Below, piece by piece: positions 7,058 to 61,081 of a DNA stretch of 64,000 nt (positions are counted from its first letter, which is position 1; the number at the start of each line of letters is the position of its first letter). The position numbers and the translations under genes were made by a program. The notes beneath the pieces are model-generated. The model saw nothing but the letters and a program-made list of their open reading frames with translations, did not search any database and was not told the DNA's origin. Source of the stretch: Hyaloscypha bicolor E (Eukaryota; Ascomycota; Leotiomycetes; Helotiales; Hyaloscyphaceae); assembly GCF_002865645.1 (NCBI RefSeq), contig NW_020194558.1:1268014-1332013 (forward strand). The letters run 5' to 3'.

Positions 7058-7288
7058 TTTTTTATTTATTTTATTTATTTTATTTATTTTATTTATTTTA
7101 TTTATTTTATTTATTTTATTTATTTTATTTATTTTATTTATTTTATTTATTTTATTATTTATTTATTTTATTTATTTATTTATTTTATTTATTTTATTTA
7201 TTTTATTTATTTTATTTATTTTATTTATTTTATTTATTTTATTTATTTTATTTATTTTATTTATTTTATTTATTTTATTTATTTTATT
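7058..7288. repeat. Microsatellite with 9-bp unit TTTTATTTA
   Basis: About 230 bases of TTTTATTTA repeats with one small irregularity near 7150-7175. It lies in RIP-degraded DNA with no gene nearby. Confidence 0.9.
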
Positions 7289-38931: not shown

Positions 38932-39479
38932 AATTTCCTATTTATTTATATTTTTTCTACTATAATTTTATATAGGCCCTATTATTATAAAAAGAAAATT
39001 TATAATAAGAAAACTATAGTTCTAAAATATATTAAAAGAATAAAAATAAAGTAATTATTTATTTAACTAAAGAAAGAAATTAATAGATATATTTTACTTA
39101 AAGTATTATATATATAAATCCGTTTTTTTTTCTCGGCCGCCTATAATAGCTAATTTTTAATAATATTAAATAGAAGCTATAAATTAAAATTATTATTAGC
39201 TTCTGCTTTTTTAGAATCTAAAGTTCTTTTATTTTTATAATTACTTCTACTAAAGTTATAGCTATATAATAAGGGGGTAAATTAGAGAAATATAGTATTT
39301 GCTTTAGGGCTTACTTAATATCCTAAAGCCCCTGCCCTTAAACTACTATTTACTAATATAATATATATACGAAAAAATAGCACTTTTTGGCTGCCCCTAT
39401 AGACCGTTTTGACTAATTTTTGATTCTAGAATCGTAAAACCGTATATACACTTTTAGAATCTCAAATTTTTAGGCCCGT

Positions 39480-39600
39480 ATAATAATTTTTGGGGTAGGT
39501 ACGGGGTGCGGGGCGGGAGGGGTGATTGCGCGGGCGGCCGGTTTGGTGAGGGCGCAGGGGGTGGGGGGCTAGGGCGGGAAGGGGCTTAGCACGAATGGGA
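39480..39600 (+). other. G-rich block at the edge of the gene island
   Basis: About 100 bases of plus strand with many G runs of three to six, from GGGGTAGGTACGGGG to GGGGCTTAGCACG. It has strong potential for G-quadruplexes. It follows directly on AT-rich DNA and precedes the first HET gene by less than 120 bases, so it lies where that gene's promoter should be. Confidence 0.7.
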
Positions 39601-42052
39601 TGGGACCGTATTTTCTTGGGGGTTCAGGCTTAATTCGCAATGCCACTTCGACTCCTCCCATTTATAATTCACGATGCCACTCCAGAAGGCTACTCCTCAA
39701 CAACATGCAGTCCACATTTCGCAAGGTTGTGCGAGAGAGAAGAAATAAACTGGTCGAAGTCTCGACATTATGCGCGGAGAAAGTCTACCTTGAACTTCGA
39801 GTTCCCAAAGAAGCTTACTCGATTCACGAAGTCGTCTTCAGGACCCTATCTCACGATCAGGGTATGTGACTCCATGTCGAACATAAGCCAACCCACTGAG
39901 TCCTTTAGGTTATAGCGGTGAACCTCAGTACTATGGAACATACAAAAACTCTTTCACCTGGTTTGTCGCCTCTGTCGCTACTCCCGGTGGTCAAGAACGA
40001 TTACCCAGGAAAGTCCTACATCACAACGTCCACGCCGATGCAACTTTCAGATCGCATGAATTGTGTTGGAGAGCAGACGATCAAGATCAAGTGATTGCAG
40101 AATGGATCAACGCTATTCAAGGAGGAGACGCAATTCAGATTATCCCAGTCGCACAATATCCAGCTTGGATCAACTTTGTTCAAGAGGCGGAGATTGAGAT
40201 TCATTACATCTTGGCCCCCCAAAATGCTTCAACTTTCGGTCCTCCAGCTGTGGTTTCAGATGCTACAGGGCACCAGCTCTACCGAAGTCTCGACACAGAA
40301 ATTGACGAAGTACGGCTCATACGCTTGAATCCCGGCCCGTTCGAAGATCCGATATCATGTTCAATAACATATACGTCCCTAAAAAGATGCACAGACTCGG
40401 CCTACGAGGCTCTATCTTATTGCTGGGGAGACCATAGGCAAAGAAAAGACATCAAAGTTACTGTCACTGATCTGAAAGGCCACTCAGAGTTCATCATGTC
40501 CATCACCCTATCTCTGTACTCGGCACTGCAGAAACTTCGACCACAGAATGGGGTCGCCAGGGTACTTTGGGCTGATTCAATTTGCATCAACCAAAATGAC
40601 CTCGATGAGAGATCGTCTCAAGTCTCTCTGATGTGTGATGTCTATCGCAAGGCACAAGGGGTCGTCGTTTGGCTGGGACAAGGTACAGAGCTCATGCATA
40701 AATCCATTATGACTTTGACTACTATCAAGAATCGGTACAAGCCAGACGAGTCCATGGATCTGCCAGCAACCCAATTGTCTCGTCTCCATGACCCATTGAT
40801 GGAAACTGTTAATGGCGAAAAGCATCCTGGCATGTACGACTTTGTTGATGACTGGACATTGTTCGAATCGCCATGGTTCAGTCGCACCTGGGTCGTTCAA
40901 GAAGCTTTCAATGCACGAGAAACAACCTTTTATTGTGGGGACAATACACTCAATCTGGCAACGATGCTGCGAGTCAATAAATGCATCTCATCACTTAAGG
41001 GTCTAAAGGTAAACTCTTCTCACAAGGCTATGATGCCTCCAATCTATGACGATCTCTTCCATGCTAAATTTGCGACTGGTAACTCACAGTCCATGCAGAA
41101 CGGGATTCTCGAAGTCCTCATCAAAGGACTTGATCTGGATGCTACAGACCCTCGCGACAAGATCTTCGCAATGCTGCAATTTGGAAAAGAGACCCAGAAT
41201 CCGGAATTGCTGCCGCTTGAGCTTGTGCCTGATTACCGCAGGTCGGTTTCGGAAGTGTTTTCAAGTTTCACAAAATGGTGGATTGTGAAGCATGAGTCTC
41301 TGAGAATTCTCTCTGCAATTCATGCATTGGACGGGAGAGCATGGCAGGCAAACAAGTGGGAGACAACTCCCAAATACGATGCAGATCAGCCGACGTGGTC
41401 TTGGTGGTTCCGTGGACGGAGCAATTGGACTATTGGAATCCTCGGCCTCAAAACAGATAACTCGTACCGCGCTTCTGCAGACACCAAACCGAATATTTCC
41501 TTGATTTCTGAAGGTGAACAGATGTCAATTCTCGCTTTGGCTGGGATCAAGATCGATTTCATCGAAAGTTTAATCCCTTATCCATATTTCAGCCCACCGC
41601 AAAATCTTGAGAGCCTTCACCGGGCATACGTTGGTATCTTTGATCCCCTGAATCTTACCGGAAAGTGGCAACACCAACTGGCGCCAGAAAACATGGACGC
41701 CTACGTCTTCTTGGACGACACTGCGAAGATGAGGGCTCACTACGCTGCACATCAAGACTTTTCAATCAAGACTAATGCGGTAGAGTGTAACGACTCCTCT
41801 TTCTTCAGCACACGAGGAGGTTTGGTTGGACTTTGCCCACCTTCGGCTCGGGTTGGTGATATACTTGTCGTTCTCTATGGAGGTCCAGTTCCTTACGTTC
41901 TTCGAGAATTACCAGGTCCACATCGTGCTACTCACCAACCCGCCAAAAGGTACGAGTTTATTGGGGAATGCTACCTGGAATCGTATATGGATGGTCGTGG
42001 TATCAAGGATAATGAACGAGGAGTCGAGACTGAAATATTTTCTTTGATCTGA
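39600..42052 (+). CDS. HET-domain protein 1 (heterokaryon incompatibility)
   Basis: Two exons. The intron 39862-39908 (GTATGT...TTTAG, 47 bp) joins a G from the first exon to GT of the second, and the frame then stays open to TGA at 42050-42052. Starting at ATG 39600 gives 801 aa; the ATG at 39705 gives 766 aa and looks more natural. Residues below use the shorter form. Residues about 30-145 form a domain seen in fungal hypothetical proteins (HDQGYSG, TYKNSFTWF, CWRADD, AQYPAWINFV). The HET domain follows with its three signature blocks: YEALSYCWGDH (about 218-228), LWADSICINQND (about 272-283) and WFSRTWVVQEA (about 374-385). HET proteins trigger incompatibility cell death when non-self nuclei meet; the effector function is known for the family and inferred here. 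No lesion is seen. The start codon is the uncertain part. Confidence 0.9.
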
Positions 42053-42063
42053 TTGTCTTATGA

Positions 42064-42627
42064 AATGACAGGGCTTGGGATGCAGATATCACCAATCCTT
42101 CTCCTTTTCCACTCTACTCTCCATACGACGAAACAGCAGAGATATTAGTGGTATTCAGAGGTTGTCCGTACAATTGCTCCGGAAACGAACTGATTTCCCT
42201 CTCTACCGCTCCTTCATTCCTGGGTTCATACATCAAGCCATCTTCACCTATCTTCCCGGATTCAAACGAAGATTCCGTCTGGCGCGATAGAAGAGGATAT
42301 TGGCACATGCTTCTTCACTCCTTGGAAGCAGATGGTGGAATTGGAAATGGTCCAAAAGTTGGGAGACATGCATTTGCAGTGGAGCTAGAAGGACCATGGT
42401 ATTTTGATAACGAGACTTTGGCGTTTAGTACTGAAGTTAGCTTTGAGGATGGGAATGTAGTGGGTTATTATCGGAGGGAAAGATCGCAGTTGTTTTTTAG
42501 TGAGGATGGAGAGATGAGGCCGTTGTATTTGACGACTGGTGCGCAGGAGGGGGGTAGTGGGATGTCGTATAGTTTGATAGAACTGATTGAAGGAGCGGGG
42601 GCGTACGAGAGGAGTTTGGGGTTTTGA
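42064..42627 (+). pseudogene. 5'-truncated glycoside-hydrolase-like gene remnant
   Basis: A frame opens right after a stop at 42061, only 12 bases beyond the HET 1 stop, and runs 187 codons to TGA at 42625-42627. The first in-frame ATG is at 42148, but homologous-looking protein clearly starts before it (TNPSPFPLY, VFRGCPYNCSG). Later blocks are NED.VWRDRRGYWHMLLHSLE and YYRRERSQLFFSEDGEM. This is the repeat pattern of fungal five-bladed beta-propeller glycosidase-like proteins, roughly the C-terminal half; assignment to the GH43-like group is from memory of the family and tentative. The N-terminal half is missing and the remainder has no stop, so the truncation may be recent. Its breakpoint lies at the 3' end of HET 1. 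Confidence 0.6.
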
Positions 42628-43068
42628 GTGGAGGCTTTTAGTCAAAGGCCGCTTGCTTTAATTTGAGTGTAGAGTTTAAATGACCGAGGACCAGCAAGAT
42701 CCGATCTGTGAGCCGGAGACTTAATAAACAATCAAAAATTCAGTTGTTCAAATTTCAGCTCAGTCTTGCATTTACTTGCCCATAATTCTTCAGTGGTTGT
42801 TCCGTTCAGCCAAAGGTGAAGCCAGGGCCACTGACATCAAGGAATATGAAAGAAAGATTACAGAGGAATCCACAACTTCGAGGTACTGTTTTTGCAGTCA
42901 GATTCATATGTGAATGACATGTGAAGAAGGCTGCAAACATTATGCGGCTGTCAGCATGACAGCACTTCCACAGTGAAGCTATAAAGCCAAGGCTGTCGGT
43001 TATCGCCAAGTCGAAATTCCGACCCCAGAACAAATTTCCTTGCTGACACCTCACTCAACCTGCCCATC
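42628..43068. other. Intergenic, no gene seen
   Basis: Normal composition. Overlapping minus frames at 42806-43054 and 42951-43178 lack any recognisable motif and I treat them as chance. A TATA-like CTATAAAG at about 42978 lies 90 bases before the short frame at 43069. Confidence 0.5.
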
Positions 43069-43182
43069 ATGGCCTTCATTCCTCTCCCCTCCTTCTGGCC
43101 CGTCGCAATTGTAATTGTCAGTCTTCTCCTTCTGCCAACCATCATAGGTATCTTCGGGGGAAACAAATTCAACGTCAACTAG
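43069..43182 (+). CDS. Possible 37-aa single-pass membrane microprotein
   Basis: ATG at 43069 in a favourable context (ATCATGG) starts 37 codons and stops at TAG 43180-43182. The peptide has a proline-rich start (MAFIPLPSFWP), one strongly hydrophobic stretch of about 18 residues (VAIVIVSLLLLPTIIGIF) and a short polar tail (GGNKFNVN). A TATA-like sequence lies about 90 bases upstream and the leader is pyrimidine-rich. Length and composition fit a small membrane protein, but a frame this short can arise by chance and I recognise no family. Confidence 0.3.
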   Translation: MAFIPLPSFWPVAIVIVSLLLLPTIIGIFGGNKFNVN

Positions 43183-43481
43183 CCATCGTGCTAATTCTGG
43201 GAGTTCTAAAGCTTATCCCCTACCAATACTGGGGACCTTAATAGGCTAGAGGCACGCGACAGTATACGGAGTATATGCGTATATCTTGAGCGCGTGTATT
43301 GGGGATATACTTTTTTAAACGATTACAAGGGGCAAGAGAGGAACGTACTTCTTGCCTGCCTTTTGTACGCGTAGCAGGGGCTAAAGAATAGCCCGGGGAA
43401 AAAGCCTAACTTTACAATAAAATTACAAAAATTAGCTTGCTAAATGCGGGGGGAGGGGGCTAGAAGAGGATCAAGTTCTCA

Positions 43482-43532
43482 AATGCATAAGCATCCGTTC
43501 TAGGGTTTGCCTAGAGAGGGTGCTTATGCATT
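43482..43532. repeat. Hairpin of 15-bp arms
   Basis: AATGCATAAGCATCC (43482-43496) pairs with 43518-43532 with one mismatch around a 21-base loop. It could be a terminator-like or transposon-end structure; nothing in the context decides. Confidence 0.5.
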
Positions 43533-43871
43533 CTAATCAGAGTTGGCCTCCTGTTATTCCCGCTTTGGGCGTATACCCATATTTTAGAAATCCTACGCAA
43601 GCAGAACAGGGGTGTTGCAGGGATTTGCAGGGGCACACTGATTTTCTTTTCAAAGGCAAGGTACTGTGGGAGGGAAACTGCGACAAGACAAAAACCCACA
43701 TAAAGTACACCAGAGCGCAAAACGTGACTTGACAGCAAAATAACAAATCAAAAGCGTAAACAGTAAAGCATAAACAGTGCACAGTGTGCAAAAGCTCAAT
43801 TGATTGAATACTCATGAAGGATTGTTCTCTAAGTCTACAGAAAAACCAGCTTTCTTATGTGATTTCCGCAA

Positions 43872-43907
43872 GTCACGTGCAAAAGGCCGCGGCCTTTGCC
43901 ATGTGAC
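43872..43907. repeat. 36-bp loopless dyad with GTCACGTG / CATGTGAC ends
   Basis: Left arm GTCACGTGCAAAAGGCCG and right arm CGGCCTTTGCCATGTGAC match at 15 of 18 positions with no spacer. Its outer motif resembles the CACGTG hairpins in the AT block. Possible binding site for a bHLH factor of the Cbf1 type (inference). Confidence 0.5.
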
Positions 43908-44191
43908 CTAAACCTCAAAACCGCCAAAACGACATGATTTTTGACGAGTACGGCCTGCCGTACCACAGTACCCAAAGTGCTCAATGCTTACGAGAGGAAT
44001 AGTTGTCGATGTATTATTATGGAGTTTATTGAAGGCTAGATGCTTGAAAAGGCGTAGCCTTACCTTGCCCCTTTAGAGCAGAGCATGGTTTTATCCCAGC
44101 TAAAGGGCTATATGCGATAAATGCGCCAGATCAGACCTCCTGGCGGTACAAGAATAGGCTCGGTCGCCGGCGGTCCTGAAATCGATAGGCG

Positions 44192-44375
44192 GTCCCTTAC
44201 AGTGTGTCAAAAAAAAAATCAAGGCTAGTTAATTATAATTAACTATAGTTGATTATAGTTGATTATAATTTGATTAAGTAGATTTTGACTTGATTAAGTA
44301 GATTTTGACTTGATTTGATTTGATTCAGAGGCGATAATCAAATCAAGCTAAATCATTTGACACACTGGTCCCTTA
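44192..44375. mobile_element. hAT-like MITE, 168 bp
   Basis: The element 44200-44367 has 12-bp perfect terminal inverted repeats, CAGTGTGTCAAA and its complement TTTGACACACTG. It is flanked by an exact 8-bp direct repeat GTCCCTTA (44192-44199 and 44368-44375). The CAGTG-type ends and the 8-bp target duplication are those of the hAT superfamily. The interior is non-coding and made of overlapping copies of GATTATAGTT and GATTAAGTAGATTTTGACTT. It lies about 180 bases beyond the 3' end of the large minus-strand gene. Confidence 0.85.
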
Positions 44376-44556
44376 GTATAGTCAAAGGTAGGCCTCAGTG
44401 GTAATTAGTCCTGAAATTCAAGGAGAAGAAGAATGTGAACCTCACACATCTGTCAAATAGCAGAAGAGAAATAGGCTCGATAGGTTAACAAAAGTGGTAA
44501 CTGATATACATTGTATTGAACCCCTAGCTATTGATACCGATTATCTCTTCAGTGGC

Positions 44557-47500
44557 TCACTCATTAATCCTCCATCTTTGTATAACACTCGGATGCGTTA
44601 CTGCTCCTGCTGCTTCTAGTATCTCCGTACACCTCGTAAGGCGGGTGCCCCTGTTTACCAAGAATTCCTTCAACTTTTTATCCGCAGAAAACGGATTTAT
44701 CCGGATCCTCTCATTCAGCTCCCTTATCTCTTGAAAAACCCATGCGCGCACACTCCTCTCAACCCCATCTACGCCTATCGAGCATGCATTCACCATGGCC
44801 ATCCCCCTTGCCGGAGTTTCGAGCTCTAACACATATTGTAGGATCTCATCCAGTCCTCTTACTGCAATATTGCGCACTAGTGTGTGGCCTTCTGGGTCTA
44901 AGACGTGTAGAGCTTCGCGCAGCGTGGGGTCGCCGGGTGGAATCAAAATGCGGAACAATTCAGCTGTTTGTGCTGGAGTTTCGTCCTGGCCTTGATTCAA
45001 ACGCTCTTTCGTGATGATGGCGTGAGCAGGCGTTAAACCCGTCTCATCTGGCGCGTTTCGATCTCTACCATTAGCACAAGCGCACTTCATCTGATCGAGA
45101 TAAGAATTCGAATGCTTGTTGGTCTGGTTGCAGATTCGGCAATTGAATAAACCGAACCAGGACTCCCCTCTGGCACCGCGGGCGATATCATTAAAGTTAT
45201 ATTTGGTCCGCCGCCGCCGCCACTAACGCCAAATTCTGCGAGCAGTTGCTTGATGTCTGATATGCCGTCTTGGATCTTCAGGTAATCTGATTCCGATTCC
45301 AGCCGTAGCTTGAGAGAGGCCACATTCATCATTTGAACGACAGATTGCCCGGTGGTGTTCAAACATAGGAGTTGGTACTCAAAAAAGGGAAAAACCTCCA
45401 GAATGTGGGAATAATGCGTCCGTGGGAAAGGATGTTGGAGAAGAGTGTGGAGGGGAGTACGCCCGTAGATATCCCGTTGTATTAAAAGGATGCCTGGCGG
45501 GGTTCTGCGTGACTTGAACCATTCTAATAAAAATACCAGGTCGTCCCCAAGGTCTTGGGGATTGAGTACATGGAGAGGGTTTTGTCCAAAAACGTTCTGG
45601 TTAGTGCTATCGTGTCTGTTGGCTAAATGGCTAAAATAAGCGATTTTGACTCCAGCTGCCATAAGGAAGTGTATCGGAGAGTTTCCTGCATAATCATTCG
45701 TCTTGATACTGCTGCGATCCAGAAGGCTCATAGCTGCAACAAATTCATCGGCACTCATGCTCCGGGAGTTGATCATTAGCGCGTGCCAAGGCGTGAACCC
45801 ACAGATTGAACAACTGGCAAAAGATCCCTGCCAATCTGTACTCTGGTGATTGTCTCCGCAGGGTATAACTCGAAGAGTATCATTCCAAAGCCCGCGTTTG
45901 GGATCATGTATTGGTGGTTTGAGTGGCCGACGTAATTTCAAGGCTTCTGGTTTGGATGGGGCTTCCGGGTGGGATAGAACCGAGGATCGACTAGTAGAAG
46001 AATTTGTTGTTGCAATCGAAGCTCGATCAGAGAAGATGTCACTAGCTGTCGAAAAGATTGATGTCGCGCTTGACGACAGCCAAGTCGTATTACTCGACAT
46101 CGTATCGATTGTTGAGATGGAATTCCTGTCTGCGCCGTTGTGCTTTGAGCCTGGGGGGTGGGTCGAACGCCCGTATGTCTGGGATACTTCTTGAGCAAAG
46201 TTCGCTGAGGATGGAAGAAGGGGGAGACGAAGTCGAAGTGATAGAGGCTCAAAGGAAGGCACGCTCCCTAACTCAGAAGGGACCGGCGTAGTGGTGGAGG
46301 TAGTGGGGCTCGATCTCGACACTGAAGAATATAATTGCATAATCCTTACGCCTCTCTGAGCCAGATTTATAGGGAAGCACCAATCTCGAAAGCGGTTTGA
46401 ATATGTCTTGTACCTGTTTGCTTGTCAGTACAGCCTTCGGTTCGAATCTGTAGAGGGCTTTAACTTACGACCAGGTCAACCTCGGTGTCATTGCAGACTC
46501 CATCTGTGGGAAGCTCATTCCAGTCATATATAATCGTATAAGTTCCGGCTGATGCTTCAACTCCCAACCTCTTTGGGGTCGCCTCTCATCTGGATCAAGG
46601 ATATCTTGAATCCTCTGACATTGTTCATCGGTCAAAGCGAAGCACTGGTCCTTGGTAGGCAGGAGCAGGTGACGCCGTATTCCTCCTTGGATTTGGATGA
46701 GGCCAGTTCCGAAGGGGACCGTTCCATGGTCATAGCCGTAAACCTTCTCTCCTACATTACTTAATATTAGCATCCTCCTACCATAAAATTCCTGTTTGGA
46801 ACGAGGGGGAAACTTATTATACAACTCACCTTCCGAATTGGTTTGGGTGCGGCACCACCTCTGCCGTTCCTCATCCCACTCCCATGCAGACCACCCAGCC
46901 GAGTTAGACGCTTCTGGTGACTTTCCTTTTTGTTTCAAAGGTCCTCTGGATGAACGCTCAACCTCACGGTCCTTGTTCGCTTGTTCTTGTTCGATCTTGT
47001 GAGATAATTCAGGCTTCCGCCTCTTGCTTCTTGACACCGGACCTGCCTCAGCAGGCTCAAACGTGGCGGACTGATCTTGGGCTTCAAAAGTTTGACCTTT
47101 CTCCAGTTTGCTCCGAGCGGTTTCAATGAGCTCTCTTGAAGGCAAAGAAATTTTTTGGTACTGGCCTAGACAATTCACCATATCCTCAAAGACTTCTTCA
47201 ACCAGCAACATATATCCCCATGGCAGGGAATCTCGCCCGGCGATAATGAAGCCACTGAGCTTCCCCTGGGCGATTACCCATGAGCCAGAGTCTCCATGTT
47301 CTAGAATAAACGTTAAACATGACTAACAAACTTTGAAGGGTTGGAACTCACTCAAGCTCTCATCAAGCATGATTTGTCTAACATTTCGGAAGGATCCTCG
47401 GAGAAAGATGGACGCTGGGTTTGGATTGAGTACACCCTTGCGGACACCGCTGCCTGCAGCTACCCATACTAGATCTTTGACAAGCTCGTGTGTACTAACT

Positions 47501-48945
47501 ATTTGATCAACAAAAGTTGGATGTTCATCTCCAGGAACTTGAAATTTGTTCGGGAGCAGTGAAGAAGGAGATAAGCCCATGAGCAATACGGCCCAGTCGT
47601 TCCCATTGTCCTTAATCGCGGGTTCTTCCGGACGAAGCTGAGCATATGGACCGAAGTGAGATAAGACACCCTTATGACGAAGCGGCTGGAAAGGAGTAGG
47701 ATCTTTTTGCATTTCGAGGCTTATGTTAGACCTTGCTGATAGGCCGGGTAAGCCCGGAGGACTTCTGGGTTTCTGACCAGTATAGTCGCCCTCAGTATTA
47801 TCGGTTTCGGTCTCAGAATGAGACCCAGAGATTGAGTAATCCGAGTCCTCGTCCTCAGATCCAGAGGATTCTGTTTCACACTTGTCTTCCCGAGTCAAAG
47901 GCAGAAATGGGTGGCCAGCAGTTAAGCAAGCAAAATCGTCGTCCATGCAAATAAGTCCCCCGATGGTAAACTCTATTTGTAGCTTCACAGAGCCGCGGCC
48001 AAGAATTGAATTGACTCTCGTTGGTATGCCACAGAGTGTCTCGGGAACTGGGGGTAGTCTCGCCTCGATCAACGTCTGGTCATCGAGCTTAGTCGAATCA
48101 TCAGTACGGTAACCAAAGGTCTTGTCAACACGGACGAAGTATTGAAACCCAGAGTCTTTAAGCCATTGCAATGTCTTGAGGTGAGATTTCAGTTTCTTTT
48201 TCATCCTGGAGCTGCAACACGTTATCCATATTGACGGCTTAAGAACTCCTTTTGTGCGGCCTGCCATATAGGCTTCCAGCATCAAAGCTGCCTCGGTGTC
48301 ATCTCTGATTGCTAATGAGCTTGCGATAGAATTTTCCAATTGCTTCTTGATGCGTCCTTCCCATTTGCTCGTGTAGTGCGATGGCATTGGCAGGTCCATG
48401 GAAATGTAGTGCTTGGCATCGATGCGAATAGTTGTGTGATGCGGAAGACTGGGGGAAGAAATAGCCTCAGATGAAGATGGTACAGCGTTCACGGAAAGAG
48501 CGCTGCCCTGCTGAGCAGCTGGCGAATTCGAGCCGTCACACTCCGCTATGCCGACTGATGGCTGCAAGCCGGGCACGGGATGTGAAGACGGAGCTGTAGC
48601 TAATTCGGGCCCTTCCTCTATCTGAAGCGGCGTAAGAAAGTTCAAAGAGTCGAAAGATCCCGATTGATCATCGTGTACATTGCCATCCGCAAGCGCTGGT
48701 ACGGATTGTTGGTTGGCCGTGGGTGTGAGAAGGGTTGGATGCCACTCCGGGGAAAGCTTTTCATTGTTCGTATTGAGGTCTTAAATGGATGCAATGACTT
48801 TGGCAGGCTTAAGATGCTGTAACCTGCGGTAACTCTCTTTGAGCCTGGTACTGAGAGTAGCTTGGGGACCTGATTCCTCAACTCGTAGACTAAGGCTTTC
48901 CATCGTCCAATTGGGATCACGAGACTGGACCAGAAGAGATCGCAT
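44557..48945 (-). CDS. Large protease-fold / Clr5-like / ankyrin protein, multi-exon
   Basis: I join segments that otherwise look like separate genes. Introns on the minus strand: 47301-47351 (GTGAGT...TCTAG), 46752-46829 (GTGAGT...GTAG, 78 bp), 46414-46468 (GTAAGT, branch CTGAC, AACAG). All splice in frame. Product about 1355 aa if two weak introns are also used (48780-48851 and 45163-45227). Residues 1-430 hold a trypsin-like core with LTAGH (His about 321) and NDWAV (Asp about 426); the Ser is in HGDSGSW (about 512), created across the first intron. A WEWDEERQRW segment follows, then a Clr5-like stretch (about 722-770: ELIRLYMTGMSFPQ, YKTYSNRFRDW), a Ser/Thr-rich linker, ankyrin-like repeats (about 964-1090: NSPIHFL, QNPLHVL, GRTPLH) and a Cys-rich part (CRICNQ, MKCACANG, TPAHAII). 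Two places disturb the frame; see findings. The function is unknown; a role with the HET genes is only suggested by position. Confidence 0.7.
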
Positions 48946-49442
48946 TCGAGGCACAACGTCTCCTGGCTTTGTCCGGTCCTAGACAAGAATTGATTTCGCG
49001 AATACCCGTGGGCTGTCAGATTAAGGGACTTTCGATGAGTTGAGAGGAAAAGTTGAGGCAGTGCCCCCGTGGCTTTTGCGAACCGAGGCCAGCAGCCAGT
49101 CACAGTCAACCACCCCTGTGCAAGGCTTTTCTTCAGGCTCGCCGCACCCCTGTTTGCACTGGCGTGGCTTGAGCCAAAGAAGGGAGCGATTGCCTCTGAC
49201 CGCTCTGAATATGTTCTTCCAGGGGCTCGGCAGCTTTCTTTGTCCTCTCAATCCCTTCACCGATAATCTCATGAGCTCTTCCACAGCCCTATCCACCATC
49301 CTCCGGCTTTCGTCCACCAGATTTCTAGCGGGACTAGTAGAACGCTGTTCCCTCGTCTTATACGCTCCTTGGTTGTCCCCCAAAACTCAAGCCTTGTTCT
49401 CAATCTACGAGATCACGCAGGCTTCACAAGAGATCGAGCAAA
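48946..49442. promoter_or_regulatory. Divergent intergenic region
   Basis: About 500 bases between the putative start of the large minus-strand gene and the start of the plus-strand membrane-protein gene. Frames exist on both strands (49021-49383 minus, 49040-49492 plus) and overlap each other. Neither shows a recognisable domain, so I treat the stretch as a shared upstream region that could also hide 5' exons of either gene. Confidence 0.35.
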
Positions 49443-50576
49443 ATGGCATCAATCCGGTCCCTGCTCAGCGACCGCCCCTGTGCCGACGTTGAAGCTTTCA
49501 TAATCAGCCAGCTTTGGGGAACGGATATCCAAACGCTCCCGGGATCGTACCAGTCATATTTTCGCTACTACGGAACAGAATGCCGACGCCTCCAATTTGG
49601 GATCTCAAAGGAGGCATGGCAGTCAACATCGATGGCGGCAAACACCCACGAGCACGTGATTCTTATAGTGAACACTCTAGCATTAGACAAGAGCCGCGAT
49701 CGGCCTGCCGTTCGGGCGTTGCTTCGTCAGCACTTCCCGAGTTCTCATGATTTGGCTCTTGATCGATCAATCGACTTCGCCTTGCGAGCATGGCTTACAT
49801 TGAACGTCAGAGAAGAGAGTTTTGCTTTGCATACTCCACGGACACCAACGATCCAATGGGATGACTCGTCCAGCCTCGCTGGCTTCGTACTTCGCAACTT
49901 TCCACGAGCAACAACAACGAGCTCTTACCCCCTCGATCATACATTCACGGCAGCGAACATCAATCGCTTAAGTGGCATCGACATTGAATGGACTCCCTGT
50001 CTTGCGGATCACTTGAGGTTCGATAAGAGACGGAGGCTTTTGAGGGTGTATCCATTCAAGCAAACTTTACTCGACCATTTGCAAATATGGGAGTCCTCGA
50101 AAACTACCCCCGAGAAAGTTTCCCGGTGAGTTGAACCTCTACGCTATACTTGAACTGGTATCTAATCCCGTTAGGGCTTTGATACCACTCACCGTTCTCA
50201 AAGAGGCACTGCTGTCACTCGACTTACTTTTCCCTTACCGGGATCCACTCACAGATAGCTTCATGCGGCAGCATGACCAGACCTTCCACCTCAAGGGCCC
50301 TTTGATGATTCCGGCCCTCTCAGCCTCATGGATTTTGATCACTGGAGAAATAGGCTTCTAGAGCTCCATCACATGTTTCACTCTCCTCCCGTTGGGTGGA
50401 GCCAGATTTGGGCCGATAGACGAAATCCGCTGCAGTGGTACACATTCTGGCTGGCAATTGTTATCTTGGTACTCACTCTAGCCTTTGGTATCATATCCTC
50501 GGTAACCGCCATTATTCAGACATGCCTGGCGTACGAAAGTATTAAGATAGCAAGGTCTCAGCAGACTCCAAGTTGA
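49443..50576 (+). pseudogene. Fungal protein with C-terminal membrane anchor, frameshifted
   Basis: Exon 1 is 49443-50125 (ATG, SLLSDRPCADVEAFIISQLWG). The intron 50126-50174 (GTGAGT...CGTTAG, 49 bp) joins in frame to exon 2 (ALIPLTVLKEALLSLDLLF). Near 50298-50303 the coding sense moves by one base: before it the frame reads FHLKGP, after it FDDSGPLSLMDFDHWRNRL in the next frame. One base seems to have been lost from the GGGCCCTTT tract. The second part ends at 50576 with a hydrophobic helix (WYTFWLAIVILVLTLAFG, then a second apolar stretch) and a short tail. Family: fungal hypothetical proteins with conserved GIDIEWTPCLADHLRFD and RRNPLQWYTFW blocks; function unknown to me. As read it would stop at 50361 without its anchor. 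An assembly error is possible. Confidence 0.75.
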
Positions 50577-51261
50577 GAAGATGCTTCCACGACCTGAGGA
50601 AAAGCGGGTGTGGTTACTGGAGCATAGGCTCGAACATTCTCGTGGCAGAACAAATATTTGTGATGAAATAGAATGCCACGTGCAAATACTAGAATACTTC
50701 AAGCGATGCAAAACACAAATATTGTCTCTTCTTGAGTAATTCTGCACTTTCTTCCTTTACCTTAAAAATGATCCGGAGGAATTTCGCCATATTGCTAATA
50801 TTCGGGCTTGATTGGATGAGGAGGGCTTCGATTATGGGATCGATTTTGGTAATTGGAGGGAAGGGGTGGAATTCTGGATGTATTAGTTGGACTGTATGAG
50901 GTTGCATGCGGGAGGGGCGATAATTGGAGGGTGGGGGGTATTTTTTGTCTGGGACGGGGGATGCAAGATATTGAGTCCGGAGGGCTGAATAATATTAAAA
51001 TTAATAGTAAGTTATTAAAGGTAAGTTTTATTAATAATGGCTTCGGGGTTATATAAGGCATATTTAATTTGCCCGACTATATATAGTAGCAAACAAATAC
51101 CGGGCTTGGGCACTAATGCTATTAGGGATCTAAAGACAAGCAAGCATTCTATTATTCGATTAACTTACTTTATAATCTGGAGTTATTATTATTGAGCAAT
51201 TCGCGATTTAGTAATATTGGGTCATAAGCAATGCGGCTCCAGATGTGTTTTCCAAAGCTCG
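50577..51261. other. Intergenic, no gene seen
   Basis: Normal composition, shifting to AT-rich towards 51000. Small frames on both strands (50689-51061) have no recognisable content. The phrase AATTGGAGGG occurs at about 50853 and 50920 in a purine-rich stretch. Nothing else stands out. Confidence 0.5.
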
Positions 51262-51802
51262 GTAAAAAAGGGAAAATGTAAAACGACCCGCCGCACCCTC
51301 CCCCCCCCCCCCCCCCCCCGGGTGTCGATTGGGGGCCGGACTAACCTAAAGTAGAGAGGAACACCAAAAATCTAGTTTTCCTTTAAGTTTAATTTACTAT
51401 ATAAAGAATTATTATAATTTAATTATTTTTTTATATTATAAAAAGCCAGATTATAAGCTAATAGAATATAAAGTTTTTATTATATAATAATAAGAAAATT
51501 TAAGAAAATTTAAAGAAGGTAAGGAAAGTCGGGATTTTTTAAGGCACTCTGAGAGCCTGAAAATTTAGCGATCAAGCGCCTGGAACTAATTTACCTCGTG
51601 CGCAATTATTGCCTTGCCTGTTTCACACCCCAAATTAGAGCTCTTATATATAAACTTGTTTATACCTATATTAGCAAATCTGATTCGAGAGAAAGACTTA
51701 AGTAAGTACAAGTAACTAATTGGCTTTATTAAAACTCTAAAATCCACTGATTCGTATAATCGACACCCGGGGGGGTGTCGTTTTACATTTTCCCGTAAAA
51801 AA
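51262..51802. mobile_element. 525-bp inverted-repeat element with 8-bp target duplication
   Basis: The element 51270-51794 begins GGGAAAATGTAAAACGAC and ends with its exact complement. An exact 8-bp direct repeat GTAAAAAA flanks it (51262-51269, 51795-51802). Next to the outer repeat, both ends carry CGGGTGTCGATT or its complement, so the terminal repeats are about 37 bp. The left copy has extra bases and a run of 20 C where the right has seven G. The interior is AT-rich and non-coding with a TATATATAAA stretch near 51645. A hAT-like or other 8-bp-duplicating superfamily is likely; no transposase is present. Confidence 0.85.
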
Positions 51803-51816
51803 TGGTGTTTTAAAGC

Positions 51817-52515
51817 CAGTTTCTACGGAAAGCCGTAAGGATCAGAAGACCAAGCGATTTTCGAATCTGGTTTTCGACCTTCAATGTCTGATTTGTGGCA
51901 CGTGCGCACCCCACCAAAAATCACAAATACCTATACACCACGCCTATATATTATACCCCCTCTCCCTGTGCCTCTATTATTACTTCAAATATTTCCTCTC
52001 TTTGATTCTTCTCGCTCTTTTTATAAGTATAAGGGTAAGAGAGGGGAGAAGGGGGGGAGGGGGAGGGCAGGGCAAGGGGACCTTACTAAAAATTTACGTT
52101 GCAAAGCACTAAATTTTTAGTACCTATAGCCTATAATTTAGTGATTGTGGCCCTAAAATTTAGCGATAAGTAGCCTATAATTATAGGGCTTCCTTTTCCT
52201 CGCGAGTCGCATGCCTTAAAGCTCGCTTTTCGATTTTCGCTTTTCACTTTTCACTTTTCACTTTCACTCTCCTCCCCCCCACCCCCATCCCCATCTACCC
52301 CTCTCTCGCCCCTCTCTCGTATATATATAAATAAGAATTGAAAAGAGAGTAATATTTTAAGTAGTAATAATAAGTAGAGGCACAGGAAGAGAGGGCATAA
52401 TATGTAGGCGATTTTTGGTTGGGTGCGCACGTGCCACAAATCAGACATTGAAGGTCGAAAACCAGATTCGAAAATCGCTTGGTCTTCTGATCCTTACGGC
52501 TTTCCGTACAGTTTC
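51817..52515. mobile_element. Foldback (long terminal inverted repeat) element
   Basis: The element 51824-52508 starts TACGGAAAGCCGTAAGG and ends with its complement. About 99 bp of each end match with one mismatch, and weaker similarity continues to roughly 230 bp per arm. CAGTTTC directly flanks both ends (51817-51823, 52509-52515), a 7-bp target duplication. The centre (about 52080-52200) repeats AAATTTAGCGAT-like words. The two frames beginning MSDLWHVRT (51884 plus, 52448 minus) are mirror images produced by the arms, not genes. It sits about 265 bases upstream of HET 2. Long arms suggest a MULE or foldback type, but 7 bp is shorter than the usual MULE duplication. Confidence 0.85.
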
Positions 52516-52774
52516 GCCTACCGCTGTAAGCCCATATCCCAAAAATCCATTTTCGCTTCGTCCTTCTAACACTTCTTGCTAAACCTCTCTCCGGATCTCC
52601 GATGGCTTAGTCCATCCCGAAATGGTGCAACCTATGCCGAATACGTTTCTATTCGTGTGTCGAGTGAGAGTTTGCCCACAGTGAAGCTCGCCCTCCCGTG
52701 TTTTTTAGCTTTCGCGGGTCGCATGTCTAAGCTAGAGAGGTGTGAAGCGGTGTTTGTTACTAATTCACCGCGCA

Positions 52775-54826
52775 ATGCGAACGTATCAATACGAGCCTTT
52801 GGGCGCCAACGCCGAAAGGGGATTCAGACTCGTAAATCTACTCCCTGGGCAGTTTAAGGACGAAATTCGTGTTGAAATTTTGCGTACAGAGTCGCCCCCT
52901 GGACATTCGGTTCAGAATGATTTGAGCTACGAGGCGTTGTCGTACGTCTGGGGTCCAGAAGAGAATTCATCGATCATTGCCGTTCGAGATGCTTCGTTGA
53001 GACTCTATGGAAGGGAATCGAGTTCCATCCTTGACGACACCACATTGAAGCCATCATACATTTCCGAAGCAAATTCTCGGACTCTGTCTATCAGACAAAA
53101 CTTGGTTGTTGCCCTACGGCATCTACGAAAGTCTTCCGAGGGCAGAATCTTGTGGATAGATGCAATTTGCATCAACCAGGAAGATGTGGAAGAACGGAAC
53201 AGAGAAGTTGGCCGGATGGGCCAGATATACGGCAAGGCTACTCGAGCCTTGATTTGGCTTGGTCCCGAGGGCGAGAACAGCTCTCTGGCTATACGGTCTC
53301 TGCGGCTTTTCGCCGAAGATTTGACTAATGAATTCGTCATGGATTATTCGGGTAGCAGATACCGAGCACCAGGTTCGAGAACTGAGCTACTTCTTGCATC
53401 CCCGATTCCATGGTATGACGAAGAAGGACCCTGGCTGGCGATTCGAAGGTTGTTTCACCGCAAGTGGTTTACTCGCCTTTGGGTATATCAGGAGTGCCGC
53501 CTGGCTGCTGACGTACTTGTGATTGTGGGCTTCGATACGTTGCCACTGCTGGAATTCGTTCGAGCTGGGATGTGGTTCGCTGAAGCCTGTTTGGAAACGC
53601 AAGATTTTTTGGGGGCACAAAGGCTTGCTGCTTCGCTGAACATCATCCGGCCAAGACCGGCTGCCGGTGGAATGGACGTGATCAGTAGAACAAGAGGATG
53701 TGACTGCGAAGATCCAAGAGACCGAATATATGCAATCATGGAACTGTTTCCAAAACACATCAAACACAACCTACATCCCGATTACAGGTTGCCAGTCGAA
53801 GTTGTCTACAAGGACTTCTTTCTTGCATACCTGAATAATTCTGGAGTAATGAACTTCATTGGGTTACCATTGATCAGCAATCGTTCGACTCATTCCTCTG
53901 AATCAATTCCATCCTGGATACCAAACTTGGCATGCCCTGTTCGTCGCTTACAGTTTGGCCTGGCTTGTGGAAAGTCTGAGCATACGGTTGTTCATTCAAG
54001 CACGAACGACAGCCTTCGAGGGCATGGGACCCAAATTGCTAAGCTTTCTAGCGTCGGGGGTACTCTTCCTCTTGGTGCCACCAATAGAGAAATACTCGCA
54101 TACTGCGCTGCTCACCAACCCCGAGACTTGTTTAAAGGAACATACGTAGATGGCCGAATGCTGCTCGAAGTATTTGCGGAAACATTAGTCTCCGGATCGA
54201 GAGACAAGCTTTTCGGTATAGATTTTCCCTCATCGGAGCAATTATGTGACGAATATTTGCAGTTTTCGACAACTGGAAAGCAGCCTTCGCCATTCTTCCT
54301 CTATCAAATGAGAACATACCTACCAGGAAGGGCGTTCTTCAATGCTCACGGTGGCTACTTCGGAACGTGCCCTCCTACAGCTGCCCCAGGGGACATTGTC
54401 TGCGTGGTCCTTGGCTTCCAATTTCCCATAGTTCTTCACCCGATCGCAGAAGAGCCAGGCTGCTTTGAACTACGCGGAGAATGTTATGTACCTGGCTTAA
54501 TGGAAGGCCAAGGTCTGTTAGGGCCAATCACACAGGGATGGAGGTTATTTAAGTTATTGAGGCCCAGACCCTGGGGATATCTTTTCACAAATGGCCAAAT
54601 TCAAACCCAGAATGATCCGCGATTGCCTGCTCTGCCTCCGAATTGGCGAGTGAGCTTTCAGTTTGGAGACATTCTTCAAGATAATGAATATGATTCTGAT
54701 GGAAACGTTGGGGAGACAAGATTTGTCAACGAGAAAGAAGGAAAGGTGCAGTGGCATGACCCAAGGTTGACACCGGAGTTGTTGAAAGCACGAGGAGTCA
54801 AAATTGAGCAGCTGTCCATCAAATAG
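52775..54826 (+). CDS. HET-domain protein 2 with WW-like C-terminus
   Basis: Single exon, 683 aa from ATG 52775 (MRTYQYEPLG, the usual HET start); an in-frame ATG at 52742 would add 11 residues. The HET domain begins at about residue 50 with YEALSYVWGPEE (52-63), continues with ILWIDAICINQEDVEE (125-140) and RALIWLGPEGE, and closes with WFTRLWVYQECRLA (231-244). DCEDPRDRIYAIMELFP (about 308-324) matches the conserved block after the domain. The tail has a GGYFGTCPP/GD block and, from about 620, a WW-like segment (LPPNWRV, then RFVNEKEGKVQWHDPRL). Role as for HET 1: incompatibility-type cell death (family knowledge). It differs from HET 1 in lacking the N-terminal extra domain and in having the WW-like end, so the two are not recent duplicates. 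The foldback element lies in its upstream region. No lesion seen. Confidence 0.92.
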   Translation: MRTYQYEPLGANAERGFRLVNLLPGQFKDEIRVEILRTESPPGHSVQNDLSYEALSYVWGPEENSSIIAVRDASLRLYGRESSSILDDTTLKPSYISEANSRTLSIRQNLVVALRHLRKSSEGRILWIDAICINQEDVEERNREVGRMGQIYGKATRALIWLGPEGENSSLAIRSLRLFAEDLTNEFVMDYSGSRYRAPGSRTELLLASPIPWYDEEGPWLAIRRLFHRKWFTRLWVYQECRLAADVLVIVGFDTLPLLEFVRAGMWFAEACLETQDFLGAQRLAASLNIIRPRPAAGGMDVISRTRGCDCEDPRDRIYAIMELFPKHIKHNLHPDYRLPVEVVYKDFFLAYLNNSGVMNFIGLPLISNRSTHSSESIPSWIPNLACPVRRLQFGLACGKSEHTVVHSSTNDSLRGHGTQIAKLSSVGGTLPLGATNREILAYCAAHQPRDLFKGTYVDGRMLLEVFAETLVSGSRDKLFGIDFPSSEQLCDEYLQFSTTGKQPSPFFLYQMRTYLPGRAFFNAHGGYFGTCPPTAAPGDIVCVVLGFQFPIVLHPIAEEPGCFELRGECYVPGLMEGQGLLGPITQGWRLFKLLRPRPWGYLFTNGQIQTQNDPRLPALPPNWRVSFQFGDILQDNEYDSDGNVGETRFVNEKEGKVQWHDPRLTPELLKARGVKIEQLSIK

Positions 54827-55137
54827 CAGGATCATATTCTATGAGGACATGCAGAACATTCCTGTTACAAATTTCTTAGAATCTTCAAGATCAGCTTTAC
54901 TTCCAAAGCGGTCCCCTTCAGCAGGCTTCGATTTATCTTGTAGGCAGTTAATTTATGAAAACGAGTATGGGGCGAAGAGCTGTAACATGAATAAAGAGAA
55001 TGGCATACCCGCGGCAAATGAAGTCTGCCACGAGCTGGGAAGTCGAATGCCGTGCAAAGACCAAGAAGTGTGTAAACACCAAGTACTGTATAGAAACCAA
55101 GTGGCGTGTACACACCAAATGTGCAAGGATCTCCATC
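54827..55137. other. 3' flank of HET 2 with an 18-bp tandem repeat
   Basis: A plus frame from 54804 to 55166 overlaps the HET 2 end and has no family content; I do not call it a gene. The word ACCAAG (last copy ACCAAA) recurs at 55060, 55078, 55096 and 55114, an exact 18-bp period, with related spacers of the GTGTAxACA type. Confidence 0.6.
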
Positions 55138-55289
55138 TCGCCTCGCCTTTGGATGGTCTTTATTAGGATAACCCCCTTAACCTTTATTTAGTGGGCCCGT
55201 TAGACGTTACCGATCACCTCGCCTTTTGGATGGTCTCTATCCAAGATAAATCCCAGAACTTCTATATAGTGGACTACCTAATCTCGAGT
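55138..55289. repeat. 76-bp tandem duplication
   Basis: CCTCGCCTTTGGATGGTCT at 55141 and CCTCGCCTTTTGGATGGTCT at 55217 begin two units with 76-base spacing. Both continue with AGGATAA or AGATAA and, later, TATTTAGTGG or TATATAGTGG. The units are diverged outside these blocks. Confidence 0.6.
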
Positions 55290-55399
55290 CAGTATAGTGC
55301 AAAATATAGGAATACTCTGGATTTTTATATTATTAGCCGGAGTAGTTCAGGTTTTAATACAAATTTTCAGCCATTCAAAGTTTTACTAGGCTAAATTCG

Positions 55400-55465
55400 T
55401 ATACTTTAAGCCAAAGCAGTCCAAATTATAGTAGTGCAATTCGGACTGCTTTAGCTTAAAGTATA
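55400..55465. repeat. 28-bp-arm hairpin
   Basis: The left arm 55400-55427 starts TATACTTTAAGCCAAAGCAG and pairs with 55438-55465 with two mismatches around a 10-base loop. It lies at the start of the second AT-rich block. It could be a very small foldback element or a source of a hairpin transcript. Confidence 0.7.
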
Positions 55466-55693
55466 TATAAGATATATATGTAATCTTATAATATATTAAG
55501 GTATCTTACTTTAGATACAACCACTTCGAGATATATTATTTCAAACTAATATAGTCGTAATTATAGTACTCCGAATATAAAAATAGTTTCGAAGTAAGCT
55601 TATTTACAGGGTAATTCGTTATACTATATTTTGTATAATTTCCAGGTTTGCCTGTCTAGAGATTATACTTGAGGGGCCGAATTAGGTCCCAAG

Positions 55694-55865
55694 GCGCTAG
55701 CATTAGGAATAGAGTAAGATTCGGCTCCTGATACTGGCGTATCTATTGCAATAGTACTAAAGAAACGCCGGCATTAAGAAGAGAGCAGAAATTGGATCCT
55801 TAATACTAGCGCTTGACCAATGCCAGTATTGGGAATAGAGCAAAATTCGGCTCTCTGGATACTGG
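55694..55865. repeat. Three diverged units of about 46 bp, each a hairpin cassette
   Basis: Units at 55694-55739, 55766-55812 and 55820-55865 share a pattern: GCxxxxATTA.GAATAGAG..., then ATT.GGCTC or ATTGGATCC, then ATACTGG or ATACTAG. Their ends are complementary to each other, clearest in the third (CCAGTAT at its start, ATACTGG at its end). Confidence 0.55.
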
Positions 55866-58800
55866 AAAGCGCTTATTATATAATAATAGCTTACTTAAAT
55901 ACGTGTCCTTATATACTAATATACTAGTATAGCTAGCCAGTATTATAAATAACTTCGAGAGCTCGCCTTACTCGCCTTATTCTTTTCTCTTTAGCTTGGA
56001 ATTATTAACTAAAATAGAACTAGTAAAAGGGAAAATTATTTCTAAGTCTATAAATATATACTAGTATATATTTAATTCTATAAAGATAATATAATATAAG
56101 ATTTAGACTTATTCAGACTTAATATCTATTAAATATTAGCTTTCTATATTTAATTTATTTTAATTTTAGAAATACCTATATTAATCTTTATTTTTAGGAA
56201 TAATATATCTTTTAGATCTACTAATTATTCTTAATATACTAAATAATACCAAATAGTATTATAGAAATAATAAGTAAAATAATAACCCAAAACTATTATA
56301 TCTTCTTTTAATTATTAAACTATTATTACTTAAATATATAAGGCTTGAATTTATTAAAGAACTATTTAATAATAATAAATTAGTTATACTAGTATTTGAA
56401 TTAGGTAATTTATTAATTATTAAGTTTGAGTTAGTTATAAGTAATAGCTATAGAATTAAAATAGAGTTTTATATACTTCTTTTAAAATTACTTTATTAGA
56501 AACAGAACTAGACTAGAATTAACTAAAGAGAAGCTAAAGAACTACTAAGCTAATAATAGAGAATTCGAGAATATTATTAAAGATATTATTAAAAATAGAT
56601 AAGAAAAGCTTAATAAGATTAAGATTATAGTAAATAGTTTTAAAACTAAGAATTAAAATAGAATTATATAATATAATAAAGCCTTTAGTTAATATATTAA
56701 TAATATTAATAATAACCTTAATAAAAACGTTTATAAGAAGTTATATTTTCTTTTTAAGATAAATCTTTAGTATATAAAGCTATTTAGTTAATTAATAAAG
56801 CTATTTTGGAATATATTAAAAACAAGAAATATTAAAATACTAATATATTTACTAAATCAGATATTATTAAGATATTTAAGTATATTAAAGTTATTTCGGA
56901 ATTTGGAGAATTAGTTTTTAAGCTATTATTAGCTAATAATTTTAAGGCTAAATAATATATCTTTAATATTTCCGGAATTCTAATTAAAGAAATTTATAAT
57001 AATAAGCCTTTTTCTATTTTCTAAAATAAGTCTAAAGAATAAACCCCTATTATAATTTTAGCTTTAATTTAATCGGATTTAGTTAATAAGAATAAAACTA
57101 AGTTAATATAGCTTAATAATAATTCTATTAGTAAAACTAATAGAACTAGAATAATTAGATAAGAAGAATCTAATAAGAAAAGAAAAGAAGCTAAGCCTAA
57201 AACTTCTAATAAATAGTAAAAATTCAAGTACTAGTTTAAATATAAAACTAGTAAAATAAAGGAAAATAAAAAAGAAATAAGTAAAAAAGAACTTTCTATT
57301 TTAAAGAGAAAAATACTATTTAGAAAAACTCTTATATTTATATTTAAAACTAAAAAGTAAAAGATTAAAAAAATTAAATCCGGGGAAATTAAAAATAATA
57401 AATATACTTATAAAATACTAGCTAAATATAAGTTAATACTTATTTAATAAAATAAATATATTTCAAAACTTATTTATAAATAAGAATACTATAAAGTTAT
57501 TAATAGATTTCTTAAAGCTTTTTATAAAATATATATTTAATAGTTTACTAATATTCTTTTTATTAATATAAGAGATATTTATATTATTAAGAATATTTTA
57601 AAGCTAGTTACTAAAATCTATAAAGTTACTAAAGGCAAGAAATATATTTTTATTATTTAAATAAATAAAGAGATATATAATTTCTTTTTAGAAAACCAGG
57701 AAATTAAAAAATATAAATATAAGTATTATATTTCTAATTAATTTTACTTAAATTTATAATTTTAATTTAATACTATAGTTTCTATTCCTGAATCTAATAT
57801 TACTAATCTGAATATAAATAGTTATATTTATAAGAAAGATTATCTAAAACAAATTAAAAAGCTTAGTATTCGAGAGCTTTTAATATAAGAAATAGAAATA
57901 TTATAATTCTATTTCTGAAAAAATAATATAATAAAATCTAGAAACCTAGATAATAGCTATTTTATCTTAGTCTTTTAATTCTTAATAATAGATCTATTAA
58001 TATAGCTCGGATTTTATAAGGTATTAAATAAGTATTTTATTTATCTAGTTATTTATTTTTAGCTAGTTAAATATTATATTTCTAGAAATATTAATTATAA
58101 TTAGTATTAAAGTAATATTAAAAATCTGGCTATTATTAAAGCTTTAAATAACAAATTCTATTTTAATAAAAAGTATTAGAATATTAACTATTTTTTTTAT
58201 AAACTATAAGAAAGCTATTAATTTTAGTAAAAAGTTTTTTAAAAATATTAGTTATTTCTTTATTTTTAATAATTTTAAGCTAGAAATAATAAAGGAAATA
58301 GGCAAGTATTTATTAAAAGTAATAAAAGAAAAAACTTCGAATATAATTTATTTAATTAGATAAATAATCTATAAGTCTGAAATTATAGGCAAATAATAAT
58401 TCTCGAATAATATAGAAACCAAAAAATAGCTTAATAATAATTTATTATTTAATAGGCCTTTTATTATAATTCTAATAAATCTAGTTATTATTAAGAATAA
58501 AATATATAAAAATGAAATCTCTTATAAAATTATTAAAGCCTTTTATTTAGAGCTTTTCTTTTCTATTAAAGATTAATTTAAAAGTATTATAAATAATACA
58601 AAATTCGAAAAAGCTATTTATTTAGAATATATTAATATAATTTAGAATATGATTTATTATAATAAGTCTTTTTAATATCTAGTAGTAAAGGCAGAAATTA
58701 AGTAATAATTAAAAATAAATACTAACTAATATAAAGAAATATATTGGATTTAATATAAGAATATAATTAAACGGATTTGAATTACTTTTAAATAAATTCG

Positions 58801-59004
58801 GGAATATAAAATAAGACTATTTAAAAATAATAGATCTTATTTTAAATATATTAAAAAGAAATTAAATTAGCTAATAGAAAAGAATTCTAATTATTTTATT
58901 ATTAAATAGAATTTTTCTATTAGTTTTAGTATTTAGAAAACAAATATAAATAAATAAGAAATCGAATATAATATAATAAATTATATTTTCTAAAAATTAT
59001 ATTA

Positions 59005-59260
59005 TTTTAGTAATTTTAAGGTTTTAGTTATATAATAAAAGCTATAGTCTTTTATATATAACTTGAGGGAATTATATAAAAAGCTAGTTTTTCTATAATT
59101 CTAGAAAATAATTTCTTTTTAATATTTAATTAATTAAGCTTTTATATATTATATATTATTTATATTTTACTATTTATACTTTTAATCTCATTATTTTACT
59201 ATTAAGTTATATTTTACATTCTAATATACTTTATATAGGTTTTTGTTTTATTATAGTTTC
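59005..59260 (+). repeat. LTR-like repeat C, copy 3 (reverse orientation)
   Basis: Reverse complement of the segments at 11140-11400 and 30190-30480. It carries the same TTATATAATAAAAGCT start and the AATTAATTAAGCTTTTATAT block. A short further piece of the family (AAAACTATAATAAAATAAAA) lies at about 59966 in the opposite orientation. Confidence 0.5.
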
Positions 59261-59574
59261 TCTTTTATATTAAATAACTAAAGCTTAGACTTTATAACTA
59301 ATAAGTTCAATTTTACTAGTTTATATATTTAAAGTATTTTAGTAATATTTTAAAATTTCAAACCTTTAAATTCTTAAAAATTAATTAATAAAATTATATT
59401 TTAGTTATTTTGCTTTTTAGATATTAGATATTAAATTATATTTATTTATTATTATTTTATAATTATTAAGTAATTTTATAGACTTTGGTTTTAGTAAGCT
59501 TATAAATAAATTTATTATATTTAAATCTGTCTAAAAAATACTTTATATATATAAACTAGTAAGATTAAACTTAT

Positions 59575-59760
59575 AAATAGCTAAAGTTTAATTTTAATAA
59601 TTAAATAGCTAAATCTTAAATTTTAATAATTAAATAACTAAAGCTTGAATTTTAATAATTAAATAACTAAAACTTGGATTTTAATAATTAAATAATTAAA
59701 GATTTGGATTTTAATAACTAAATAACTAAAGCTTAATTTTAATAATTAAATAGCCGGAAT
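59575..59760. repeat. 29-bp minisatellite, 6-7 copies
   Basis: The unit AATAATTAAATAACTAAAGC plus TTGAATTTT repeats with a period of 29 bases; the CTAAA word falls at about 59581, 59609, 59638, 59667, 59696 and 59726. Substitutions between units are mostly single transitions. Confidence 0.8.
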
Positions 59761-60020
59761 TTTAGTTTTAGTTATTTAGCTATTAAAATTAATTAGGGTA
59801 AGTTAAAAAAAAGTAAATATTAAATAAAGAAATTATATAAATTTATAAAAAGAAATAATTCTTTATAGTTATAATTTATTAAAATTAATCCGGAAAACTA
59901 TAATAATTCTTAATTAATTATATATATTATATATTTTTTAAACTTAAAATATTATAGAAAGAAAACTATAATAAAATAAAAACCTATATAAAATATATTA
60001 GAATATAAAATATTAATATA

Positions 60021-61075: not shown

Positions 61076-61081
61076 GCTAAT

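Follow-up and report, generated by a model that had tools for sequence, protein, structure and literature searches.

We analyzed a 64,000-nucleotide stretch of the Hyaloscypha bicolor E genome (contig NW_020194558.1, positions 1,268,014 to 1,332,013), hereafter the window, in which a gene for a putative protease on the minus strand (48945 down to 44557) lies head to head with a second gene, its partner, on the plus strand (49443..50576). The two start codons are 497 bases apart. Starting from an ATG at 48945, exon 1 of the protease gene (47352..48945) encodes a low-complexity N-terminus, a pre-protease domain (LKPSIWITCC at 48243) and the motifs TAGH (47922) and NDWAV (47601). Intron 1 (47301..47351; 51 nt, GTGAGT..TAG) is followed by exon 2 (46830..47300) with the nucleophile motif GDSGSW (47295), the end of the protease domain, a basic linker and a WSAWEWD motif (46893). 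Intron 2 (46752..46829; 78 nt, GTGAGT..TAG, with TGCTAAT close to its end) leads to exon 3 (46469..46751), where homology to a family of stand-alone proteins begins (LLPTKDQC, 46665) and the first portion of a Clr5-like segment is found. After intron 3 (46414..46468; 55 nt, GTAAGT..CAG), exon 4 continues in a first frame (45217..46413) with the end of the Clr5-like segment, a low-complexity linker, a C-H-C-C motif and ankyrin-like repeats. The homology then switches frame across a short break (45208..45216) that has no intron counterpart in a paralogue on contig C70, and runs on in a second frame (44557..45207) with a second Cys cluster and the last ankyrin-like repeats up to the end of the open reading frame (ORF) at 44557. 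The partner gene is composed of two exons (49443-50125 and 50175-50576) separated by a single intron (50126-50174), and its product contains one hydrophobic helix near the C-terminus and is probably a tail-anchored membrane protein.

A preliminary description of this DNA, made from the letters alone, had proposed that three well-formed introns (47351/47301, 46829/46752 and 46468/46414) join a serine-protease triad with Clr5-like and ankyrin/Cys-rich parts in one gene. All three short GT-AG introns were recovered on the minus strand, and splicing indeed places GDSGSW in frame with TAGH and NDWAV, followed by the basic linker, the Clr5-like segment and the ankyrin/Cys-rich region. The motif is not restricted to the spliced product, as had been stated, given that the raw ORF 46465-47322 already holds GDSGSW. 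Support for intron 1 comes from 4 of 20 relatives (P0003, P0108, P0109 and P0116, all named at NCBI), in which GDSGSW directly follows the same conserved stretch. The remaining 16, including the NCBI-named P0119, lack the motif or end before it, and several (P0101, P0102) run into the intron 1 sequence and stop. Intron 3 is matched by an intron at the corresponding position of the C70 paralogue, and the Helotiales protein P0001 reads spliced there. Intron 2 is in phase and stop-free, and thus the frame from the protease to the Clr5-like segment is continuous whether spliced or unspliced. At the ORF level, the three parts are therefore linked as one reading unit. A single product does not follow, since the three introns alone leave 48945-44557 not open, with an in-frame TAA at 48783-48781 and a frame change at about 45.2 kb.

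The protease-like fold on which the preliminary description had staked its proposal was found in the predicted structure of a homologue, which adopts a double beta-barrel. A Foldseek search returned NARROW LEAF 1 (NAL1), a plant trypsin-like serine protease, as the closest solved structure (15-19% sequence identity, root-mean-square deviation (rmsd) 5.4), and the VIA alignment to NAL1 spans both the pre-protease and the protease domain. The order of the putative catalytic residues, His-Asp-Ser, is likewise that of TAGH, NDWAV and GDSGSW in the spliced window frame and corresponds to H393, D499 and S582 in P0109. No Pfam trypsin family scored over its cut-off for the window product, P0003, P0108 or P0109, and a PDB sequence-profile search with the protease family yielded one meaningless match, the fold search performing better. 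Taken together, the best explanation is that the window gene encodes an intracellular chymotrypsin-fold protease, as judged from the modelled homologue, of a family not recognised by Pfam. At four loci (L034, L054, L060 and L062), Cys replaces the nucleophile Ser (GDCG). Such a Cys nucleophile resembles that of viral 3C-type proteases.

We assessed the pairing of the two genes in the Hyaloscypha bicolor E genome. Searching it with the window partner revealed 15 loci, 13 of which adjoin a protease gene. With a second partner as query, the number of partner loci rose to 22, some of them weak or degraded. From the protease side, the paired C19 protease as query returned 12 protease loci, its own among them, to which another search added three. 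For 14 of these 15 protease loci, a partner match is found at a distance of 316-2397 bp, in head-to-head orientation at 13 and in tandem at one (C74); the sole locus without a partner is C51:1363, and a search with its protease found six loci, none new. In these numbers, an N-terminal half (C42:366) and a C-terminal half (C42:372) stand for a single protease; taken separately, they would raise the count to 16 loci, of which 14 adjoin a partner. The two halves (G000:C42:365670-372699) are about 6 kb apart, as if separated by an insertion. Under uniform and independent placement, the chance of finding 14 of 15 loci within 3 kb is about 1e-38, a value that overstates independence because the copies may share their linkage by descent. 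Identities to the C24:169 partner range from 20-37% for one set of ORF pieces and from 20-56% for C-terminal pieces, and given these low values, the protease-partner linkage has outlasted long divergence. Eight of the 22 partner loci have no protease match within 2.4 kb: five are weak matches (C10, C22, C1:865, C62:2447 and C3), another is the fragment C24:2301, which lies some 4 kb away from the C24:2305 protease, at C26 a HET gene replaces the protease, and at C44 nothing was seen within 1.5 kb flanks. As read from their sequences, at least two of the 14 pairs are damaged, and other pairs look intact in the parts read, which makes them direct objects for testing. At G000:C1:3812466-3815716, stops degrade both genes of what appears to be a dead pair still together.

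The window pair itself shows several disruptions. The protease frame from ATG 48945 hits the TAA at 48783-48781, the next in-frame ATG being at 48399, and a close relative (P0102, with 92% identity across 69% of the query) reads through at this site. Further downstream, ORF 45087-46424 gives way to ORF 44557-45222, and homology to P0001 jumps frames at 45216/45207. An intron at this place was considered and rejected, because the nearest GT-AG choices found by eye delete the conserved DIARGARG and the C70 paralogue reads across the position in one uninterrupted frame. The partner frame breaks near 50290-50305. The two HET genes on either side of the pair are open over 721 and 696 codons. We conclude that the window protease copy is probably decaying; for the pair as a whole, either both genes decay or some of the disruptions are assembly errors.

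Downstream of the protease, the Clr5-like segment named in the preliminary description is present, but scores below the Pfam cut-off (PF14420; 14.9 bits against 22.3, compared with 18.6 for P0001 and 17.1 for P0040), and for this reason we refer to it as Clr5-like. The ankyrin repeats were confirmed by fold or profile. In P0001 (60% identity over 40% of the query), in P0002 and on C70, the Clr5-ankyrin/Cys-rich module forms a gene of its own. Compared with C70, it differs at 122, 94 and 258 first, second and third codon positions over 449 codons, with a nonsynonymous divergence (dN) of 0.27 and a synonymous divergence (dS) that was not computable and that we read as saturated. This codon-position pattern indicates that the Clr5-ankyrin part has been under constraint. 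Among the closest matches listed, the genome contains 75 Clr5 matches. One paralogue of the C-terminal family (L010, G000:C51:698000-707900, ORFs 4880-7411 and 7440-8012, minus strand) is preceded by caspase-type motifs (YYAGHG, LLDCCASG), its first ORF scoring 17.7 bits for Peptidase_C14 against a cut-off of 21.4; LLDCCASG also occurs in P0058, P0060 and P0071. Close to this paralogue lies a transposase ORF (9070-9900, minus strand; DDE_3, HTH_Tnp_Tc3_2).

The existence of stand-alone relatives raises the question of whether the protease and the Clr5-ankyrin part are two neighbouring genes, merged by chance or by loss of signals in a decaying locus, their fusion having no function of its own. 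The in-frame stop and the frame break within the same locus fit this explanation, as does the observation that the Clr5-ankyrin family starts at its own Met just upstream of the corresponding region in P0001, P0002 and C70. Gene models can also fuse neighbours: in P0003, from Cudoniella, the protease is followed by a stretch that looks transporter-like by eye and has no Pfam family, and its similarity to an MFS transporter ORF found after the C38 protease suggests that P0003 may be a merged model. That ORF (L031, G000:C38:212800-222700, ORF 2993-4720, minus strand) scores 104.6 bits in Pfam. Against a merger, the 128 codons between the protease tail and the Clr5 module are stop-free, which occurred in 0.24% of base shuffles, and a well-formed, in-phase intron lies inside the joint. 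In addition, the Bisporella sp. PMI_857 protein P0040, known as a gene model, combines a trypsin-type, a Clr5-like and an ankyrin part within a single chain, though interleaved differently. Its Clr5-like segment sits inside the trypsin-type protease between the His and Asp motifs, and the ankyrin part comes after the protease. On balance, we regard such a merger as rather doubtful. The W..W.WD pattern of the linker is common in fungi; among all proteins and loci retrieved, it was present solely in the window gene and the loci belonging to it.

The C-terminal additions of the protease differ between copies. The C21:120 protease frame runs on into an F-box (31.9 bits, cut-off 20.5), and a BTB ORF, fused or separate, comes after the C19 protease. 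P0120 resembles the tail of the window protease over its first 80 residues (a 70% match), with agreement by eye at 52 of the initial 56 positions as far as FEPAEA, after which its frame leads into a protein kinase. P0120 consists of a single ORF on a contig of 1,907 bases, so a chimeric assembly may explain this fusion. Among the closest kinase matches in the genome, none is a close copy of the P0120 kinase beside the window gene.

The preliminary description had further placed the gene among non-self recognition receptors acting with neighbouring HET genes. Both HET genes were verified by Pfam scores over the cut-off (39887-42052, 102.7 bits; 52736-54826, 112.3 bits), and they share a gene island with the pair. 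This island (39001-56000, 36-53% G+C) is flanked by blocks of 12-22% G+C (3001-39000 and 56001-64000), which presumably resemble those of fungal genomes with repeat-induced mutation. Elsewhere, the HET ORF at C26 occupies the position of the protease, head to head with a partner homologue (L038, G000:C26:1122536-1126174; 32.9 bits with part of the gene seen), and the caspase-like paralogue has a HET match (C51:698122) at a distance of about 5 kb. The genome, however, contains at least 150 HET loci (785 candidates, of which 150 were scored), and when the scored ones are considered, 1 of the 22 partner loci has a HET gene within 10 kb, as compared to 0.8 expected. At least two genuine HET ORFs, those at 39887-42052 of the window and at C26, are absent from the scored list, which slightly raises confidence in a HET link. 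HET association as the organising feature is not shown by these scored loci; the recurring companion of the protease is the head-to-head gene at 49443-50576. Moreover, a Pfam scan of the spliced window product (E up to 1) detected no NB-ARC or NACHT domain, and thus no nucleotide-binding domain. A HET-linked receptor appears quite improbable.

We favour a different reading, namely that the locus represents a two-gene module of a protease and a membrane partner that recurs in this genome, in which the C-terminal domains of the protease are exchangeable and the arrangement is comparable to that of fungal protease-gasdermin clusters. We put the probability of this reading at about 50%. It builds on the fold of the homologue, the His-Asp-Ser order, the pairing and its orientation, the hydrophobic segment of the partner and the differing C-terminal parts of the protease. 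According to passages of PMC12881547, more than 80% of fungal gasdermin genes have a protease gene in their cluster, ANK, TPR or WD40 repeats occur in a large fraction of those proteases, and such repeat-fused proteases act as sensors in fungal cell-death clusters. This is in line with the earlier remark on protease-repeat architectures. The same kind of clustering was found here, with 14 of 15 protease loci adjoining a partner homologue. Those clusters differ in that the protease types named for them are S8 and CHAT (PMC12881547, same passages) instead of chymotrypsin-fold and NAL1-like, and in that the partner described here carries a C-terminal hydrophobic segment and has no Pfam match over the cut-off. 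As the partner may or may not be a gasdermin, we confine the likeness to gene arrangement. A further parallel is offered by fungal NOD-like receptors with exchangeable N-terminal effector domains, in which protease-type domains are swapped beside a repeat region, whereas the window product lacks NB-ARC and NACHT. Helotiales proteins such as P0001 and P0002 share the part order of the C-terminal half, yet have their own starting Met and no protease.

Several observations weigh against this reading. Seen from the partner side, a protease lies within 2.4 kb of 14 of the 22 matches, the pairing is known from one genome, the reverse query (L034) was already a paired protease, and the copies may be linked by descent. 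Beyond its core, the structural model has low confidence (mean pLDDT 52.9). The nucleophile motif varies among copies (GDSGSW, GDSGAW, GDCGAW, GDCGSL, GDCGSA and, in the C24:2305 protease, GLSGCW), and some copies may thus be inactive. Frame breaks affect both genes of the window pair, and the partners tested showed neither a Pfam family over the cut-off nor a known killer domain.

The resemblance to NAL1 would allow another function, in which the Clr5-like module would take the protease to chromatin to remove a co-repressor, with no role in death or non-self recognition. Clr5 is a silencing factor of fission yeast, and the NAL1 match includes the pre-protease domain. Maize NAL1a degrades a TOPLESS-like co-repressor, according to passages of PMC12915138. 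In contrast, the remaining protease loci read, not all of them full length, showed no Clr5 segment, the NAL1 match has an rmsd of 5.4, and the companion that recurs is probably a membrane protein. NAL1 itself has no Clr5/ankyrin part, and the literature passages on NAL1 mention no membrane partner. We consider such a regulatory role unlikely.

Returning to the protease-partner module, we tentatively suggest, as a possibility well short of even odds, that it constitutes an undescribed fungal system of regulated death or self-defence, combining a NAL1-like protease, a C-terminal sensor exchanged among copies and near relatives (Clr5-ankyrin, F-box or kinase) and a tail-anchored protein that is cleaved by the protease or restrains it. 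In the module as favoured above, the protease would be held latent, with the C-terminal module serving as the input that senses a trigger. Upon triggering, the protease would cleave the membrane partner or be released from it, and the partner may be the executioner or the restraint at the membrane, on the model of fungal and bacterial protease-gasdermin clusters. In the titles and abstract openings of the literature searched, neither a Clr5-protease-ankyrin protein nor this gene pair is described, and the search returned no paper combining Clr5, serine protease, ankyrin repeat and fungal. Two-gene clusters of a protease and an effector are one route to controlled cell death in fungi and bacteria. 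If our reading is correct, the pair would represent a second such architecture, a paired family with neither member in Pfam and with C-terminal modules that differ between copies. With 14 pairs in a single genome, 13 in head-to-head orientation, it would parallel the protease-gasdermin pairs while employing a different protease and a different executioner.
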